A DNA stretch of 40,456 nt from Rhodothermia bacterium (lineage in GTDB: Bacteria > Bacteroidota > Rhodothermia > Rhodothermales > UBA2364): positions 1 through 40,456 of the forward strand of contig JAFLBZ010000038.1 of assembly GCA_017303715.1 (NCBI GenBank), written 5' to 3'. A model generated the notes under the pieces. It ran no database searches and was not told the DNA's origin. It saw nothing but the letters and a program-made list of their open reading frames with translations. The number at the start of each line of letters is the position of its first letter. The first letter of the stretch is position 1. A program made the translations under genes and the position numbers. This document shows, piece by piece, positions 5,828 through 13,430 of the stretch.

Positions 5828-7561
5828 ATGATTACGAAGGTTATTTTAAAAAACTTCAAACGAATAGATTCAGAGGAGTTTGAACTTTCTGACTTCGACT
5901 TATTGGTAGGCTCAAACAATAGTGGAAAAAGCACCTTGCTTCAGGCGATGGCGATTTGGCAGTATTGCGTTGACCAATTCAAAAGAACCAACAGAAAGGG
6001 CAGTACGGGTATTCAGATAGTGTTGCCCGATTTTACCGCGCTGCCCCTGCCCGAATTCAATCTGTTGTGGAAAGACAAAACCGAACGGAAAAATGTCAAG
6101 AAGGCAGAGGGCGGGCATAAGCCCGAATTAATCCTCATCGAGATTTCGGTATTTTGGCAGTCTGTCGAGGCAGAAAAATTGGTTGAAAAATACTTGACCG
6201 TACAGCTCAGGTATGCCTCCCCCTTGTCCATTTATGCCATACCAGAAGGTGGGTTTGAAAAATTTAAATTATTGAGTGAGCATAAGGATTTCCCACAAAT
6301 CATATATGTTCCTCCATTTTCTGGTTTGGAGCCAGTGGAAAAATGGCTTGACGATGGAAATGTGAAACAAAATGTGGGAAAGGGGCAACCCGGCTCAGTT
6401 TTAAGAAACCTATTGTATAGGGTGGTGGACAGATTGGACGAAAACGGACACTTATTATCTCCAGAAAAAAATCCGAACTGGAAAGAGATAGAAAACAAAA
6501 TTAATGAATGGTTTGGAGTGAAGTTGAATCCGCCAGTTTACCAAAAAGGACAAAGTACGCAGATTAGCATGACTTACAAGGTTGGGAAAAAGGCATTTGA
6601 TATAATTTCGGCGGGTAGTGGTTTCCATCAAATACTTACACTGATGGCTTTTTTTTACGGATATAAAGGAATTACGACCATTCTCTTTGATGAGCCTGAT
6701 GCACACCTTCATGTGAACCTTCAAAAGCAAATCCTCTCTTATTTCAAACAAAAGAAACAAATACAATTCTTGATTGCAACCCATTCAGAGGAATTTATAC
6801 GAGGTGTTGAAGTCAATTCTATCGTGTCCATCTTGTCGGGGAACCCCAAGAGAATCCAATCCACTGAAGAGGTCGTTAGGGCGATGAGTGTGGTTGACAA
6901 TATAGAAGTCATTAGGACCAACCAAAACCCTTATATACTGTATGTGGAAGGGGAAGATGACGAAAGAATCCTAACGGCATGGGCAGAAAACTTAAGCAAA
7001 ATCGAAGTCCTCAAACAATTCTATGTCTATAAAATGGGGGGTACATCAAAAGAAGAAATGAAAAAGCGGCAGGAGGAGCATTTCAGGGCGCTTAGGCAAA
7101 TAAACCCAGGCATCAAAAGACTTGTACTGTTTGACTATGACACGGACGTGTCTTTCCACCCCGATGAAAACAACCCTGTCATGAAGGAATGGAAAAGAAA
7201 GAACATTGAAAACTATCTTTTAGTGCCTGAAGCATGGAAGAAGGCGATTCTTGACGTGACTAACCAAAAAGAGTTTAACTTATTTAACCTCGGTTACAAA
7301 ACTATCATCGAGGATTTTTTTGACGAGCAAAACCTTACCTTGCCCCCCAAATCAACTTGGGCAACAGTTAGGGCTAACATTTTCTCGGTAGTTGACGGCA
7401 AAAAAATCTTATTTGAAGAAAGCGACTCTTTATTTCAAAGGATTAAAAAAGTGGAAGACCTTAAGGTGAATAGGGAAAAAGTCGCCAGTAATATGAGTAA
7501 GGATATGATACATGAGGACGTGATACATTTTTTTAATTTACTTACTGACATAGTTTCATGA
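5828..7561 (+). CDS. OLD-family AAA ATPase with TOPRIM nuclease domain
   Basis: Predicted ATP-dependent DNA nuclease of the overcoming-lysogenization-defect type, 577 aa. The ABC-type ATPase shows Walker A GSNNSGKST (residues 28-36), a signature-like region ISAGSGFHQIL (about 262-272) and Walker B TTILFDEPDAHLH (about 282-294), followed by an ATHSEEFI switch segment. The C-terminal TOPRIM domain has the invariant Glu in YVEGEDDE (about 372-379) and the acidic LFDYDTD motif (about 434-440). Relatives act in phage defence, for example the GajA subunit of Gabija and OLD nucleases. No GajB-type helicase follows, but a decayed restriction helicase begins about 45 bp downstream. The gene looks intact and may function alone. 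Confidence 0.88.
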   Translation: MITKVILKNFKRIDSEEFELSDFDLLVGSNNSGKSTLLQAMAIWQYCVDQFKRTNRKGSTGIQIVLPDFTALPLPEFNLLWKDKTERKNVKKAEGGHKPELILIEISVFWQSVEAEKLVEKYLTVQLRYASPLSIYAIPEGGFEKFKLLSEHKDFPQIIYVPPFSGLEPVEKWLDDGNVKQNVGKGQPGSVLRNLLYRVVDRLDENGHLLSPEKNPNWKEIENKINEWFGVKLNPPVYQKGQSTQISMTYKVGKKAFDIISAGSGFHQILTLMAFFYGYKGITTILFDEPDAHLHVNLQKQILSYFKQKKQIQFLIATHSEEFIRGVEVNSIVSILSGNPKRIQSTEEVVRAMSVVDNIEVIRTNQNPYILYVEGEDDERILTAWAENLSKIEVLKQFYVYKMGGTSKEEMKKRQEEHFRALRQINPGIKRLVLFDYDTDVSFHPDENNPVMKEWKRKNIENYLLVPEAWKKAILDVTNQKEFNLFNLGYKTIIEDFFDEQNLTLPPKSTWATVRANIFSVVDGKKILFEESDSLFQRIKKVEDLKVNREKVASNMSKDMIHEDVIHFFNLLTDIVS

Positions 7562-8369: not shown

Positions 8370-10619
8370 ATGAAATCTTGTCTTCGCTTCTGCATACTGG
8401 TTGTATTGGCCGGAAGTTCTTGGCTTTTGGCCCAAACGCCCGACGCCGAAATCATTACGTTTGATAAACTTTTTAGTGGATACTATGGTGGCGAGGGCTT
8501 TGGCCCTGTTCGTTGGTTGGAAAATGGCACCGCCTATACCACCTTAGAGCGCCCCGCCAATGGAAGTGCAGGACAAGACTTGGTACGATACGATACGGCC
8601 ACTGGTGCGCGAAGCGTCCTGATTCCGGCCAGCACCTTTATCCCAAAAGGCACTGCAAATCCTTTAGAACTGGAAGAATACGAGTGGTCGCCGGATCGCA
8701 AACAACTCCTGATTTTCACCAATTCCGAGCGCGTTTGGCGCACCAATACACGTGGGGATTATTGGGTTTTGGAGGTGGCAACTGGGAAATTGTGGCAATT
8801 GGGCGGCAAGGCTCCCGCTTCTACACTCATGTTTGCCAAATTTTCGCCGGATGGAAGGCATGTGGCCTATGTGTGCCAGAACAACCTCTACGTAGAGACA
8901 CTCGCAACCAAACGCATTGTGCAACTCACCCGTGATGGCTCCAGAACCACCATTAATGGAACCTTCGATTGGGTGTATGAGGAAGAATTTGGCTTGCAAG
9001 ATGGCTTCCGATGGAGTCCGGACGGAAAAAACATCGCTTATTGGCAATTGGATGCAAAAGGGGTAAGGGATTTCCTGATGATCAACAATACAGATTCATT
9101 GTATTCCTATGTAATTCCAATTCAGTACCCCAAAGCTGGAACCACGAACTCGGCGGCTCGCGTTGGTGTAGTGGCTGCAACTGGTGGCCCGACTATCTGG
9201 ATGAACGTACCGGGAGATCGTCGGAACAACTACATTGCGCGGATGGAGTGGGCGGGAAATGCCCAAGAATTGGTGATCCAACGCATGAACCGGAAACAAA
9301 ATACCAACCAAGTCATGTTGTGTGAGGCCAAAACCGGACGCACGCGCACCGTCTTTACCGATGCCGACCCCAAGGCATGGGTAGATGTGGTGGATGATGT
9401 GATCTGGACGAACGACAGCCAAACGTTTACTTGGGTCAGTGAGCGAGACGGGTGGCGGAAACTGTACAAAATCCAACGGGATGGCAGCCGTGTAGAAGTC
9501 GTTACCAAGGGCGATTTTGATGTGGCGCGGGTACTGCAAATAGACCCTACGTCGGGATGGGTGTATTACATGGCCTCGCCGGAAAATCCCACACAACGTT
9601 ACCTCTACCGCATCCGCTTAGACGGAACGGGCAACGAGCGGCTCACCCCGATGCAACAATCGGGCGTACACCAATACACGATTTCGCCCAATGGCCAATT
9701 TGCCTTACACACTTGGTCGTCTTTTGGCGTGCCGCCCGTCACCGAGATCATCCGCCTGCCCATACACGAAACCCTCCGTATTCCCGTACCCAATACCCGC
9801 ATGAAAGCGCGCGTGGCCGAAATTCGCACTGCAAAGTCCGAGTTCTTTCGCATAGATGCCGGAAATGGGGTGCAGTTGGATGGTTGGATCATGAAACCCG
9901 CCGATTTTGATCCCGCCAAAAAATACCCAATCCTCTTCCACGTATATGGTGAGCCTGCCGGACAAACCGTCATGGATTCTTGGGGCGGACGGAACTTCCT
10001 ATGGCACACCATGCTCACGCAAAAAGGCTATATCGTGGCCAGTTTGGACAATCGGGGCACGCCTTCTTTGCGTGGTCGGGATTGGCGAAAGGTGATTTAC
10101 GGCAAAATTGGGGTTCTGGCGTCAGAGGAACAAGCTACGGCCTCGCAGAATATGGCCCGAAAATGGTCTTGGATAGACTCCACAAGAGTCGGGGTTTGGG
10201 GTTGGAGTGGCGGCGGCTCTATGACCCTTAACCTACTCTTCCGCTCGCCCGAATGGTACAAAATGGGCATGTCGGTAGCACCCGTCCCCGATCAACGGCT
10301 CTACGATACCATCTACCAAGAACGATATATGGATACCCCCCAAGACAATCCAGAAGGCTATCGGATTGGGTCGCCCCTCACATTTGCAGACCAACTCAAG
10401 GGGAACCTTTTGGTGGTGCATGGCACAGGGGACGACAACGTGCATTACCAAGGAACCGAGCGCTTGATCAATGCACTGATTGAGGCCAATAAACCATTTA
10501 CCATGATGGCCTATCCCAATAGGGCACATGGCATTTATGAAGGAAAAAACACCAGCCGTCATTTGTATGAATTGCTCACCCGTTATTTGCTTACCAATTT
10601 AGCTGTAGGCGCACGATAG
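8370..10619 (+). CDS. S9 family dipeptidyl-peptidase IV-like peptidase
   Basis: Secreted/periplasmic serine peptidase of 749 aa that removes N-terminal dipeptides, typically Xaa-Pro. A signal peptide (MKSCLRFC...SSWLLAQ) is followed by an eight-bladed-propeller DPPIV_N domain. This carries the double-Glu motif VYEEEFGL (about residues 202-209) that binds the substrate N-terminus. The C-terminal alpha/beta hydrolase has nucleophile GWSGGGS (Ser613), the Asp in GTGDDNVHYQ and the His in RAHGIYEG. The frame is open from 8322, but that would put about 16 odd residues before the signal peptide, so ATG 8370 is chosen. It appears intact and monocistronic, downstream of the pseudogene. Confidence 0.95.
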   Translation: MKSCLRFCILVVLAGSSWLLAQTPDAEIITFDKLFSGYYGGEGFGPVRWLENGTAYTTLERPANGSAGQDLVRYDTATGARSVLIPASTFIPKGTANPLELEEYEWSPDRKQLLIFTNSERVWRTNTRGDYWVLEVATGKLWQLGGKAPASTLMFAKFSPDGRHVAYVCQNNLYVETLATKRIVQLTRDGSRTTINGTFDWVYEEEFGLQDGFRWSPDGKNIAYWQLDAKGVRDFLMINNTDSLYSYVIPIQYPKAGTTNSAARVGVVAATGGPTIWMNVPGDRRNNYIARMEWAGNAQELVIQRMNRKQNTNQVMLCEAKTGRTRTVFTDADPKAWVDVVDDVIWTNDSQTFTWVSERDGWRKLYKIQRDGSRVEVVTKGDFDVARVLQIDPTSGWVYYMASPENPTQRYLYRIRLDGTGNERLTPMQQSGVHQYTISPNGQFALHTWSSFGVPPVTEIIRLPIHETLRIPVPNTRMKARVAEIRTAKSEFFRIDAGNGVQLDGWIMKPADFDPAKKYPILFHVYGEPAGQTVMDSWGGRNFLWHTMLTQKGYIVASLDNRGTPSLRGRDWRKVIYGKIGVLASEEQATASQNMARKWSWIDSTRVGVWGWSGGGSMTLNLLFRSPEWYKMGMSVAPVPDQRLYDTIYQERYMDTPQDNPEGYRIGSPLTFADQLKGNLLVVHGTGDDNVHYQGTERLINALIEANKPFTMMAYPNRAHGIYEGKNTSRHLYELLTRYLLTNLAVGAR

Positions 10620-10711
10620 CCCCCCTTAACAAAATAAATGACCAATCTTACGCCCATGCAGAAATACCTCTTTTGCCTTCATAACAACAATGCCAATTCT
10701 TTGTGATGAAC

Positions 10712-10740
10712 TGTGGGTGTAAGCCATACTTGCACCCACA
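10712..10740. other. 12-bp stem-loop
   Basis: TGTGGGTGTAAG (10712-10723) pairs with CTTGCACCCACA (10729-10740), with one G-T wobble and a 5-nt loop. It lies between the convergent S9 peptidase and propeller lipoprotein genes. It is followed on the plus strand by an A-tract rather than a T-tract, so it is not a standard intrinsic terminator, although its position suggests transcription termination or mRNA 3-prime protection. Confidence 0.6.
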
Positions 10741-10820
10741 AAAAAGTTAAACAATGAAAAAATAGGGGCTTTATACACGAGCTATAACGACGGAATTATT
10801 AAGATAGGGTATTTTCGTCA

Positions 10821-11993
10821 TTAATTATTTGATTCAAATGTAAACTTGATTTTTTGTATTGATTCAAACCTCCCTTCTTTCTTGAAATAAAAATTATCTT
10901 CTTTATCTTTTGCCAATGGTAACAAATCAGAAACACCTATTTTACCTTCAGGTAATAATGGAAATTTTTGAATTATATAGTATTTAGGGACATCAGTGCC
11001 TTTTTGGTACAGCTCTATACCCAAATCTCTTGTTGTGTTATTTTGTATGAATGTGAAATGTGCTAAATCACCATTAGATAAATAAAACAATCCTTTACTT
11101 TCATTGAAATATTTAATAAACATCTTTTGACCATTTAACGAAATGGATTCATGGAAACTACCTAAAACAGCTTTATTACCCATATTAAATCTAATATTTT
11201 CATTTTGATACTTTAATCCATAAATGGTTTTTGTTTTTTGATAATCGGTATCTTTAATCTTATATGTCACAATACCCTTTTGTAAAATCCGAGGGCTTAT
11301 ACTAACTTTATCATCCAATATCGAAATATTGACTTTGTTACCAACGAGATCAAAATACCTTATATTTATATCTATACCATTATACCCAATATCATCTAAA
11401 CTCCCTAAAGGTCTAAATGATTTTACTTCCTTCATCCAATCATTCTTCCCAGTAAAATAAATAAAACCACTATCATCAAATACATTTAAAAGATACCCAT
11501 TATTGATTTTTTGCAAATGAGCACTATTGCCTCCCCATAAAACCTTAACTGAGTTAATCAAATTAAAAAATCCATCGTATATATTTACCTTACTATTATG
11601 TTTATCATACACTCCAATCTGATCGTCGTGCATACCAAAAATGGAAGTTATGTCAAAAAAATCTTTCGGAGATTCGCCTCTTTCTCCCAATTCTTTTATG
11701 AGATTCCCATTTACATCAAAAACCTTGACACTCATCGCCATAATATCTCCCACCCACAAATTACCTTTGTAATCGGCATATGCATCTGAAATCCTGCCTA
11801 ACTCAGCATTCGGATTGTTTTCACTATTTTTGCCAATTTCAATTAAAACTGTTTTTTTAAGCGTTCTTAAATTGCTTTTGGAAGGCTGATGGTTACGATT
11901 GTCCTTACATGATATAAGAAAGGATGAGGTCGCTAAAAATAATAAAAATAAAAAGGTATAAATATAAACATTATTTTTGTTAGTATAGAGCAT
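10821..11993 (-). CDS. Six-bladed beta-propeller-like lipoprotein
   Basis: 390-aa exported lipoprotein: hydrophobic N-terminus with lipobox FLISC (Cys about residue 29) and a charged linker. Repeated propeller blade motifs follow: DAYADYKGNLWVGD, VKVFDVNGNLIKELG and IGVYDKHNSKVNIYDG. These resemble the 6-bladed beta-propeller (NHL/DUF5128, BF3164-like) lipoproteins common in Bacteroidota. Those are often encoded beside small secreted peptides such as the NVEALA family. Here it is last in a minus-strand trio with a Cys-rich peptide and a CxxC lipoprotein. The gene is visibly AT-richer than the flanking housekeeping genes, suggesting acquisition. The molecular function is unknown. Confidence 0.75.
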   Translation of the reverse strand: MLYTNKNNVYIYTFLFLLFLATSSFLISCKDNRNHQPSKSNLRTLKKTVLIEIGKNSENNPNAELGRISDAYADYKGNLWVGDIMAMSVKVFDVNGNLIKELGERGESPKDFFDITSIFGMHDDQIGVYDKHNSKVNIYDGFFNLINSVKVLWGGNSAHLQKINNGYLLNVFDDSGFIYFTGKNDWMKEVKSFRPLGSLDDIGYNGIDINIRYFDLVGNKVNISILDDKVSISPRILQKGIVTYKIKDTDYQKTKTIYGLKYQNENIRFNMGNKAVLGSFHESISLNGQKMFIKYFNESKGLFYLSNGDLAHFTFIQNNTTRDLGIELYQKGTDVPKYYIIQKFPLLPEGKIGVSDLLPLAKDKEDNFYFKKEGRFESIQKIKFTFESNN

Positions 11994-12084
11994 TTTAATA
12001 TTGTTTTTTGTGGAGGTTAATACAAATTTTTGGAATTAATTCACTCTGCGTAACGTGAATAAACTGTTAGCTGTGGTTAGATTT

Positions 12085-12318
12085 TTAACTGCCGCAGTTT
12101 CCCCAAGTAACACAACTTAAATCGTATGTTTTTGAGCCATTAGGATGGTACGTAACACTCAACGTTTCTTTGCAATATTTCGCTTCGTTGCTTAACCCAC
12201 CTTGACATTCTTCATTACTAGTACAGTTGTAACAATTTGGCGGAAGTGCATTTACGAAATCCACCACTGTTAAAAACATTACTAAAATAGAAAAACAGAA
12301 TAAAGTTGTACGTTTCAT
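12085..12318 (-). CDS. Small secreted six-cysteine peptide
   Basis: 77-aa protein with a clear signal peptide (MKRTTLFCFSILVMFLTVVD, then FVNA). The mature region of about 53 aa contains six cysteines, in PNCYNCTSNEECQGG, AKYCKE, LSCVTW and a C-terminal GNCGS. An even cysteine count and export suggest three disulfides. The ATG at 12318 is preferred over an upstream ATG at 12333 because GGGGGTAG lies just before it and the signal peptide begins there. It resembles in size and context the small Cys-containing exported peptides of Bacteroidota (NVEALA-type), but it lacks that motif and I do not recognise a named family. Its neighbours are two lipoproteins on the same strand, probably one transcription unit. 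Confidence 0.7.
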   Translation of the reverse strand: MKRTTLFCFSILVMFLTVVDFVNALPPNCYNCTSNEECQGGLSNEAKYCKETLSVTYHPNGSKTYDLSCVTWGNCGS

Positions 12319-12382
12319 ACAAACTACCCCCAATAATTGATGATGATATAATTGATGTAGGTTTGAAATTCGATAATCTAAC

Positions 12383-12907
12383 CTACATTAGGAATTTTCT
12401 TAGTACTAGTTTTTTTTCTTGATCCGAAATGGGTCGAGCTAAGAGGTCTTCGCTAAACAATAGTTTATCATTTCTATTGTCTATAATTAAGACTTTATCC
12501 TTCCCTGTAATATACTTAGGAACATTTATTGGGATGTTCTTTTCTTTTTTTTCCCGTAGTACAAATAGGAAAGGTATATCAAGCTTTATTAGGCGTATGA
12601 ATTTTTCAGCATATTCTTTGTCTTGGTACAGAACAAGTCCTTTTATATCTATTCTGTCTTGAAACTCCTGACTATCAATTAATCTTTTCCATGTATAAAT
12701 ATCGTTCATACAATACGAACAAACAGGTGGATTAATTACAAATAAAATTGTCCTACTTTTATAACTTGAAATATACGATGAAATATCAACACTATCACTG
12801 TTATGAAAACGTTTTTTATTTTGTATATTTTCTGCTTTGTATTGGGAATCTGAACATCCTGAAAGAATAAAATATCCCGATATAAATAATAAAGAAAGAG
12901 TTTTCAT
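12383..12907 (-). CDS. CxxC lipoprotein, thioredoxin-like
   Basis: 174-aa exported lipoprotein with lipobox ILSGC (Cys about residue 18). The core TILFVINPPVCSYCMNDIYTWKRL has the beta-strand plus CxxC layout of periplasmic thiol-disulfide proteins (TlpA/redoxin-like). The Pro-rich approach and a helix after the second Cys are as expected. The remaining thioredoxin fold is only weakly recognisable (VLYQDKEYAEKFIRL, IPFLFVL). It is first in the minus-strand trio, 64 bp before the Cys-rich peptide gene, so it could help form or reduce the peptide disulfides, which is an inference. The gene is AT-rich. Confidence 0.65.
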   Translation of the reverse strand: MKTLSLLFISGYFILSGCSDSQYKAENIQNKKRFHNSDSVDISSYISSYKSRTILFVINPPVCSYCMNDIYTWKRLIDSQEFQDRIDIKGLVLYQDKEYAEKFIRLIKLDIPFLFVLREKKEKNIPINVPKYITGKDKVLIIDNRNDKLLFSEDLLARPISDQEKKLVLRKFLM

Positions 12908-13430
12908 TAGACTGTTTTTTATCTTGATAAGAATATATTTGATATATAGTGATTATAAAAAAAAACTTAATTAAATCAACACATAAACATTATCTTGATA
13001 AAATCTTTATAATCTTGATAGCAAATATCACCTTACACCGAGGTTGCGGCGGTATTGATGGCATTTGGGTACGAGAGAAGCCGCCGCAGAAGTTTCCATG
13101 TACATAGAAGGACTTAAAAGGACAGCTTATTTATATCGCTTGCACACCTCCAGAGGGTTTGGGGCAGAAAGGACTTTGTTTTTATGAGTTGGTGTAAAAT
13201 TTGTTGGTAATAAAGAATATCTATTAATTATTAAATATATATAATTACTATACAAAATAGCTTTAAAGCATGTATGAGTAATAAGGTCTTGAAGTTTTCT
13301 AAAAATCCAACTCGATTTGAAACTTTTGTGTTCCCTAAGCCAACATTGTTTTCTACAACTCAATTCCGCTTTTAAGTTGGAAGTGGTTCCATGTTTTTTA
13401 CCTCCTCAATCCTTAAACAAAACCCCATTT
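12908..13430. other. AT-rich intergenic region
   Basis: Spacer between the divergent peptide/lipoprotein unit and the DedA-family gene. Several TATCTTGATAA-like stretches lie just upstream of the lipoprotein (for example around 12918-12930, 12990-13000 and 13011-13021) and may belong to its promoter region. A GC-richer patch at about 13030-13180 looks like a relic of coding DNA but could not be identified. Confidence 0.4.

Follow-up and report, generated by a model that had tools for sequence, protein, structure and literature searches.

Introduction

The methylamine dehydrogenase (mau) cluster encodes a Cys-rich chain (MauA), a propeller (MauB), a thioredoxin-like protein (MauD), and a membrane protein (MauE). 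According to an earlier note on the DNA analyzed here, Bacteroidota pair small exported peptides of the NVEALA type with propeller lipoproteins. The broad kind of propeller that concerns us here, the six-bladed NHL and DUF5128 (PF17170) proteins, includes a curated family without an assigned function, and open-literature searches for NVEALA and for DUF5128 found no papers. According to the available text of PMC7794033, which cites the earlier studies, maturation of methylamine dehydrogenase involves both MauE and MauD, and a function in forming the disulfides of the small subunit has been proposed for MauE. The same text describes decRiPPter clusters of Streptomyces in which MauE, once together with MauD, lies beside precursors with at least eight cysteines and is proposed to take part in precursor modification. 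Thioredoxin-like and NHL propeller domains also occur together in one protein in NHLRC2, as the available text of PMC6107167 describes.

We analyzed a stretch of 40,456 nucleotides of DNA from a Rhodothermia bacterium (hereafter the window), which contains a cassette of three genes. The cassette shares with the mau cluster a small exported, putatively disulfide-rich chain, a propeller, and a thioredoxin-like protein encoded together, and in two distant relatives a true MauE (PF07291) is fused to the thioredoxin-like protein or encoded next to it. It differs in its six-bladed NHL-type propeller lipoprotein and its roughly 50-residue peptide without a quinone-forming Trp; other mau genes are absent, and the window has no MauE. 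The decRiPPter clusters are actinobacterial, and a propeller lipoprotein is not mentioned in the available text of PMC7794033; by this description they are set apart. The NVEALA (PF14055) peptides of Bacteroides resemble the window peptide in being small, exported, and from Bacteroidota. In SOQ1 and NHLRC2, thioredoxin-like and NHL propeller modules likewise work together, but these are single fused eukaryotic proteins and a small secreted peptide is absent. As far as compared, none of the mau set, the decRiPPter candidates, and NVEALA has the combination of all three genes, which appears undescribed in the searchable literature. A description of the cassette was not found in the searchable open literature, and a search there that joined peptides rich in Cys with these bacterial orders and with beta-propellers returned nothing relevant by title or abstract.

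The Window Cassette and Its AT-Rich Insert

The features of the locus are as follows.

10619..13414, no strand: lineage-specific AT-rich insert with three genes, delimited by GC contrast and sister genomes
12383..12907, minus strand: thioredoxin-like lipoprotein of the "type II" family, leading gene of the unit
12085..12318, minus strand: exported six-Cys peptide precursor, second gene, ATG at 12318
10821..11993, minus strand: six-bladed NHL/DUF5128-type propeller lipoprotein, third gene, 390 aa

An earlier note on this DNA had described three minus-strand genes in a compact AT-rich unit, and they are found at these coordinates, with intergenic gaps of 64 bp between thioredoxin and peptide and 91 bp between peptide and propeller. 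The lipoprotein that the note had recognized by its PPVCSYC motif is the 174-aa open reading frame at 12907-12383, with lipobox LSGC, the signal MKTLSLLFISGYFILSGC, and the active site C63-S-Y-C66. The mature peptide of about 53 residues with six cysteines was likewise recovered: a 77-aa precursor carries a Sec-type signal ending in VNA, which leaves 53 predicted mature residues (LPPNCYNC...WGNCGS), and its cysteines occupy precursor positions 29, 32, 38, 49, 69, and 75. A GGGGG motif ends 8 bases upstream of the ATG at 12318. At the local Cys frequency, the binomial probability of at least six cysteines in 52 residues is about 2e-6, and a peptide-like ORF appeared in 5 of 500 shuffles of the insert, produced by a two-base block shuffle that is only approximately dinucleotide-preserving. 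The propeller gene has the lipobox LISC-KDN.

The 2.8 kb insert (10619-13414) has a GC content of 30.8%, whereas its flanks have 52.2% and 51.1%. It is bordered by a peptidase gene ending at 10619 and a DedA/VTT-like membrane gene, aligned from 13415. In two congeneric sister genomes (G001 and G002) both flanks align and the flanking genes are nearly adjacent, about 0.34 and 0.44 kb apart, which identifies the window cassette as a lineage-specific insert; sequence searches found neither the peptide nor the thioredoxin in either sister. The stretch at 12925-13414 has no repeat copy elsewhere in the genome, and so we identified no mobile element at this edge of the insert. The window also encodes, at 5828-7561 and upstream of the peptidase gene, an AAA-type ATPase of 577 aa whose layout is OLD-nuclease-like, a possible defense gene.

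Recurrence of the Trio in Other Genomes

The trio is more than a chance neighborhood, as it recurs in the same order from a search with the thiol protein alone. When the window thiol protein was the sole query against about 390 genomes of the phylum, it had matches in four genomes besides its own. Two of these (G341 and G005, at loci L157 and L170) have the thioredoxin, then a Cys-rich exported peptide, then a propeller, which is the window order; a genome of another class (G396, locus L172) has all three genes in a different order; and the fourth (G012) has the thioredoxin-like protein alone. A family profile adds trios in G049, G061, G035, G180, G227, G176, G065, and G348, and outside the class in G441 and G447. 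Peptide and propeller lie beside nine of the ten strong thioredoxin matches that were intact, assessable, and not used as seeds; the exception, in G330, is a TlpA-like protein of the generic kind. Among the weaker TlpA-like matches examined, most have neither partner. At one locus (L219) a single thioredoxin is upstream of two consecutive peptide-propeller pairs. Co-occurrence of the three genes had been set beforehand as a refutation test, together with conservation of the cysteines among homologues. The proposal withstood both: the three genes recur together in other genomes, and six Cys columns are kept in 16 peptides.

Two Classes of Cassette

In Rhodothermales and Balneolaceae, 15 cassettes of type II and 26 of type I were found, the latter class having been reached by starting from propellers, and type I also occurs in Gemmatimonadota. 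The gene order of type II is thioredoxin, peptide, propeller, and that of type I is peptide, propeller, thioredoxin. Type I peptides follow the pattern C-x4-C ... C ... C ... C-x4-C, often with CExDxC. The type I thioredoxin is membrane-anchored with the motif VYIGSSxCxxSN, and most of these proteins have CxxS instead of CxxC, which would fit isomerization or other thiol chemistry rather than oxidation. Its named carriers are Rhodothermales metagenome-assembled genomes (MAGs), Fodinibius salsisoli, two Gemmatimonadetes MAGs, and one Acidobacteria MAG. Full type I trios are present at most Rhodothermales loci and both Gemmatimonadetes loci, and at the Fodinibius and Acidobacteria loci thioredoxin and propeller are the genes recognized.

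Peptide class, thioredoxin class, and gene order track one another. Across all fetched loci, 26 combine a type I peptide with a type I thioredoxin placed last, 15 combine a type II peptide with a type II thioredoxin placed first, and one is mixed (Fisher P 1.6e-10), a count that is partly circular because the peptides neighboring each thioredoxin class were the source of the peptide profiles. A propeller tree, which is free of this circularity and for which the other genes were unused, separates types I and II with one change. In a profile-free test at the named type I loci, an ORF with a signal and five cysteines lies upstream of 10 of 17 propellers, and among 53 other long ORFs one has such an ORF upstream (P 5e-7).

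Further members, all in AT-rich stretches, are carried by the window's own genome: contig C2 has a type I cassette (L010), C21 a degenerate cassette (L009), and C11 a lone propeller (L008). In the degenerate cassette (L009 14190-11718) the propeller is split into two frames, a Cys-rich ORF is joined with another, longer frame, and the thioredoxin-like protein has one active-site Cys left (KKEGCSNRF). Contigs C2 and C21 both end in the same repeat (..NKLVASHVLLTKSFKFMRIKASILK..), apparently an insertion sequence beside two of the cassettes, which on C2 extends into the thioredoxin frame. Also on C2, an AraC-type regulator-like ORF (L010 10501-10947) precedes the type I peptide at a distance of about 140 bp, a neighbor that the window cassette lacks.

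Profiles built with the window sequences left out were tested on the 298 window ORFs, and each profile had the corresponding window gene as its sole significant match. The type II profiles found the thioredoxin with an E of 1.3e-18 (61.7 bits) and the peptide with an E of 7e-5 and only 17 bits, and a profile of 16 related-cassette propellers found the propeller with an E of 1.2e-12. Each of the six cysteines of the window peptide occupies a conserved family column, in the type II pattern C-x2-C-x(n)-C-x(n)-C-x(n)-C-x(n)-C that follows a signal sequence, and the CxxC (C63/C66) is invariant in the 16 type II thioredoxin members. The window gene order, on one strand with short gaps, is common to 14 other type II cassettes. 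In the propeller tree the window propeller is within the type II clade with a support of 100/100 and a long end branch of 2.65, and it is divergent, with a best identity of 21%. Membership in type I was rejected: type I profiles from which the window was left out recognize neither its peptide nor its thioredoxin, and a profile-profile comparison of the two thioredoxin types gave a probability of 0.5%, that is, no detectable homology. These two results assign the window cassette to type II.

An unrelated small ORF could have come to lie between ordinary neighbors, a thioredoxin lipoprotein and a propeller that are both generic, given that propellers of the DUF5128 type are common, as are TlpA-like proteins, and that generic TlpA matches at five loci (L192-L195 and L199) have no adjoining peptide or propeller. 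However, all three genes recur independently, with their order and the cysteines both conserved, and the left-out profiles and the tree jointly place the window genes, which makes such an arrangement highly improbable.

The Thioredoxin-Like Protein and MauE

The profile of 16 type II thioredoxin members, including two with clear Redoxin matches (L189 and L191), matches the solved structures of StoA (E 2.9e-5) and ResA (E 1.5e-4), while the window protein alone matched no Pfam model. A type I protein is predicted to adopt a thioredoxin fold (pLDDT 81), and the top Foldseek matches of this model are all TlpA/ResA-like (E 1e-4). Judged from sequence comparison, the type II thiol protein is ResA/TlpA-like, probably a thioredoxin-fold oxidoreductase. 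In L189 and L191, which are more distant relatives of the window thioredoxin, the protein is linked to MauE (PF07291, cut-off 27), as a fusion in L189 (75 bits) and as the gene after MauE in L191 (79 bits). No MauE is linked to the window cassette, and the one MauE-like gene of its genome is located elsewhere. In G447, a run of MauE, thioredoxin, peptide, and propeller has directly upstream of it a response regulator (L214 7960-8631) whose C-terminus is of the HTH type. The earlier note had seen in the lipoprotein an apparent disulfide partner of the peptide, a suggestion strengthened by the ResA/TlpA-like profile with CxxC in 16 of 16 members, the MauE fusion or neighbor in two relatives, and the tracking of peptide class by thioredoxin class.

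The Cys-rich chain might also be a permanent propeller subunit of a heteromeric surface or periplasmic complex, as in the methylamine and quinohemoprotein amine dehydrogenases, with a thioredoxin/MauE pair that matures the chain. Such an arrangement would account for a gene set of propeller, Cys-rich chain, and MauD/MauE-like maturation, and for the MauE carried by L189 and L191. However, a Trp that could form a tryptophylquinone cofactor is not conserved in the peptide alignments, the peptide is about half the size, and the propeller has no Pfam match to amine dehydrogenase heavy chains, its profile matching NHL proteins instead. We consider a complex of this kind unlikely.

Propeller and Peptide Families

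A profile of the window propeller and 16 relatives matches solved six-bladed NHL propellers down to an E of 1e-48, in agreement with the propeller-like lipoprotein that had been noted from the DNA, and also matches SOQ1. Against PF17170 the window propeller scores 20.7 bits as a whole protein (cut-off 22.9) and 23.9 in the genome search, and it is of the broad DUF5128 and six-bladed NHL kind. Its model, predicted from the alignment, has an all-beta blade pattern and is confident only in the first blades, at about residues 45-150 (mean pLDDT 56). Some cassette propellers have CKD or CKE at the lipidated cysteine, which we take to resemble Bacteroidota lipoprotein export signals and to suggest putative surface exposure of these proteins. 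By the cassette profiles, 73 of 148 propellers of the family have neither partner. A Balneolaceae genome (L159 1-9191) has six tandem DUF5128-like propeller lipoproteins with no recognizable peptide or thioredoxin nearby, and one Rhodothermales family (f15; G049, G026, G061, G069, and G085) shows a large expansion, with 37-59 candidate propellers per genome.

The peptides are strongly variable outside the Cys positions. Members of the peptide and thioredoxin families have no Pfam, NCBIfam, or PADLOC match, except for two Redoxin-like thioredoxin members, and the peptide profile has no relative among solved structures. Two known categories were considered and rejected. The first is NVEALA, whose motif had already been reported missing from this peptide: the window peptide has no PF14055 match, PF14055 is absent from the genome, and above its cut-off it was found in 0 of 148 sampled genomes, only the Bacteroides control being positive. 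The second is an anti-phage defense system, as no PADLOC model matches the window cassette.

Variation of this kind raises bacteriocin-like antagonism, in which the peptide would be a secreted toxin, the propeller a surface immunity protein, and the thioredoxin a maturation enzyme. The multi-copy, AT-rich, and lineage-specific character of the cassettes and the direct adjoining of peptide and propeller in both types point the same way. Yet a propeller of 390 aa would be an unusual immunity protein, numerous propellers occur without any peptide, no dedicated exporter was noticed beside the cassettes, and PADLOC gave no match. Antagonism as the specific function seems rather unlikely to us.

Proposed Mechanism

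We favor, with somewhat more confidence than doubt, the reading that the type II unit represents an undescribed, horizontally mobile class in which an exported disulfide-rich peptide is encoded with a thioredoxin-fold oxidoreductase dedicated to it and with its cognate propeller lipoprotein. In a first step, suggested by the signal sequence, the 77-aa precursor would pass through Sec and be cleaved after VNA. The CxxC lipoprotein, putatively periplasmic, would then make or shuffle three disulfides of the 53-residue peptide, much as MauD and MauE are thought to do for the Cys-rich methylamine dehydrogenase subunit; its family, the MauE linkage, and class tracking point to this role. Finally, the propeller lipoprotein may hold or recognize the folded peptide. 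Because the adjacency of peptide and propeller is constant, we infer one candidate peptide per propeller. After binding, the pair may be ligand and receptor, antagonist and immunity protein, or one surface complex.

Significance

The trio occurs dozens of times, with duplicates inside single genomes, and seems to be transferred between lineages. The uncharacterized DUF5128-type propellers thereby gain a concrete candidate ligand, and thiol maturation of secreted peptides can be put to the test in a part of the tree that has been little studied. The cassettes also indicate a pool of natural disulfide-rich peptides missed by family databases. More tentatively, and at less than even confidence, Rhodothermales, Balneolaceae, Gemmatimonadota, and possibly Acidobacteriota may possess multi-copy, horizontally spread peptide systems for intercellular recognition or antagonism, in which each peptide would have its own oxidoreductase class and surface propeller.
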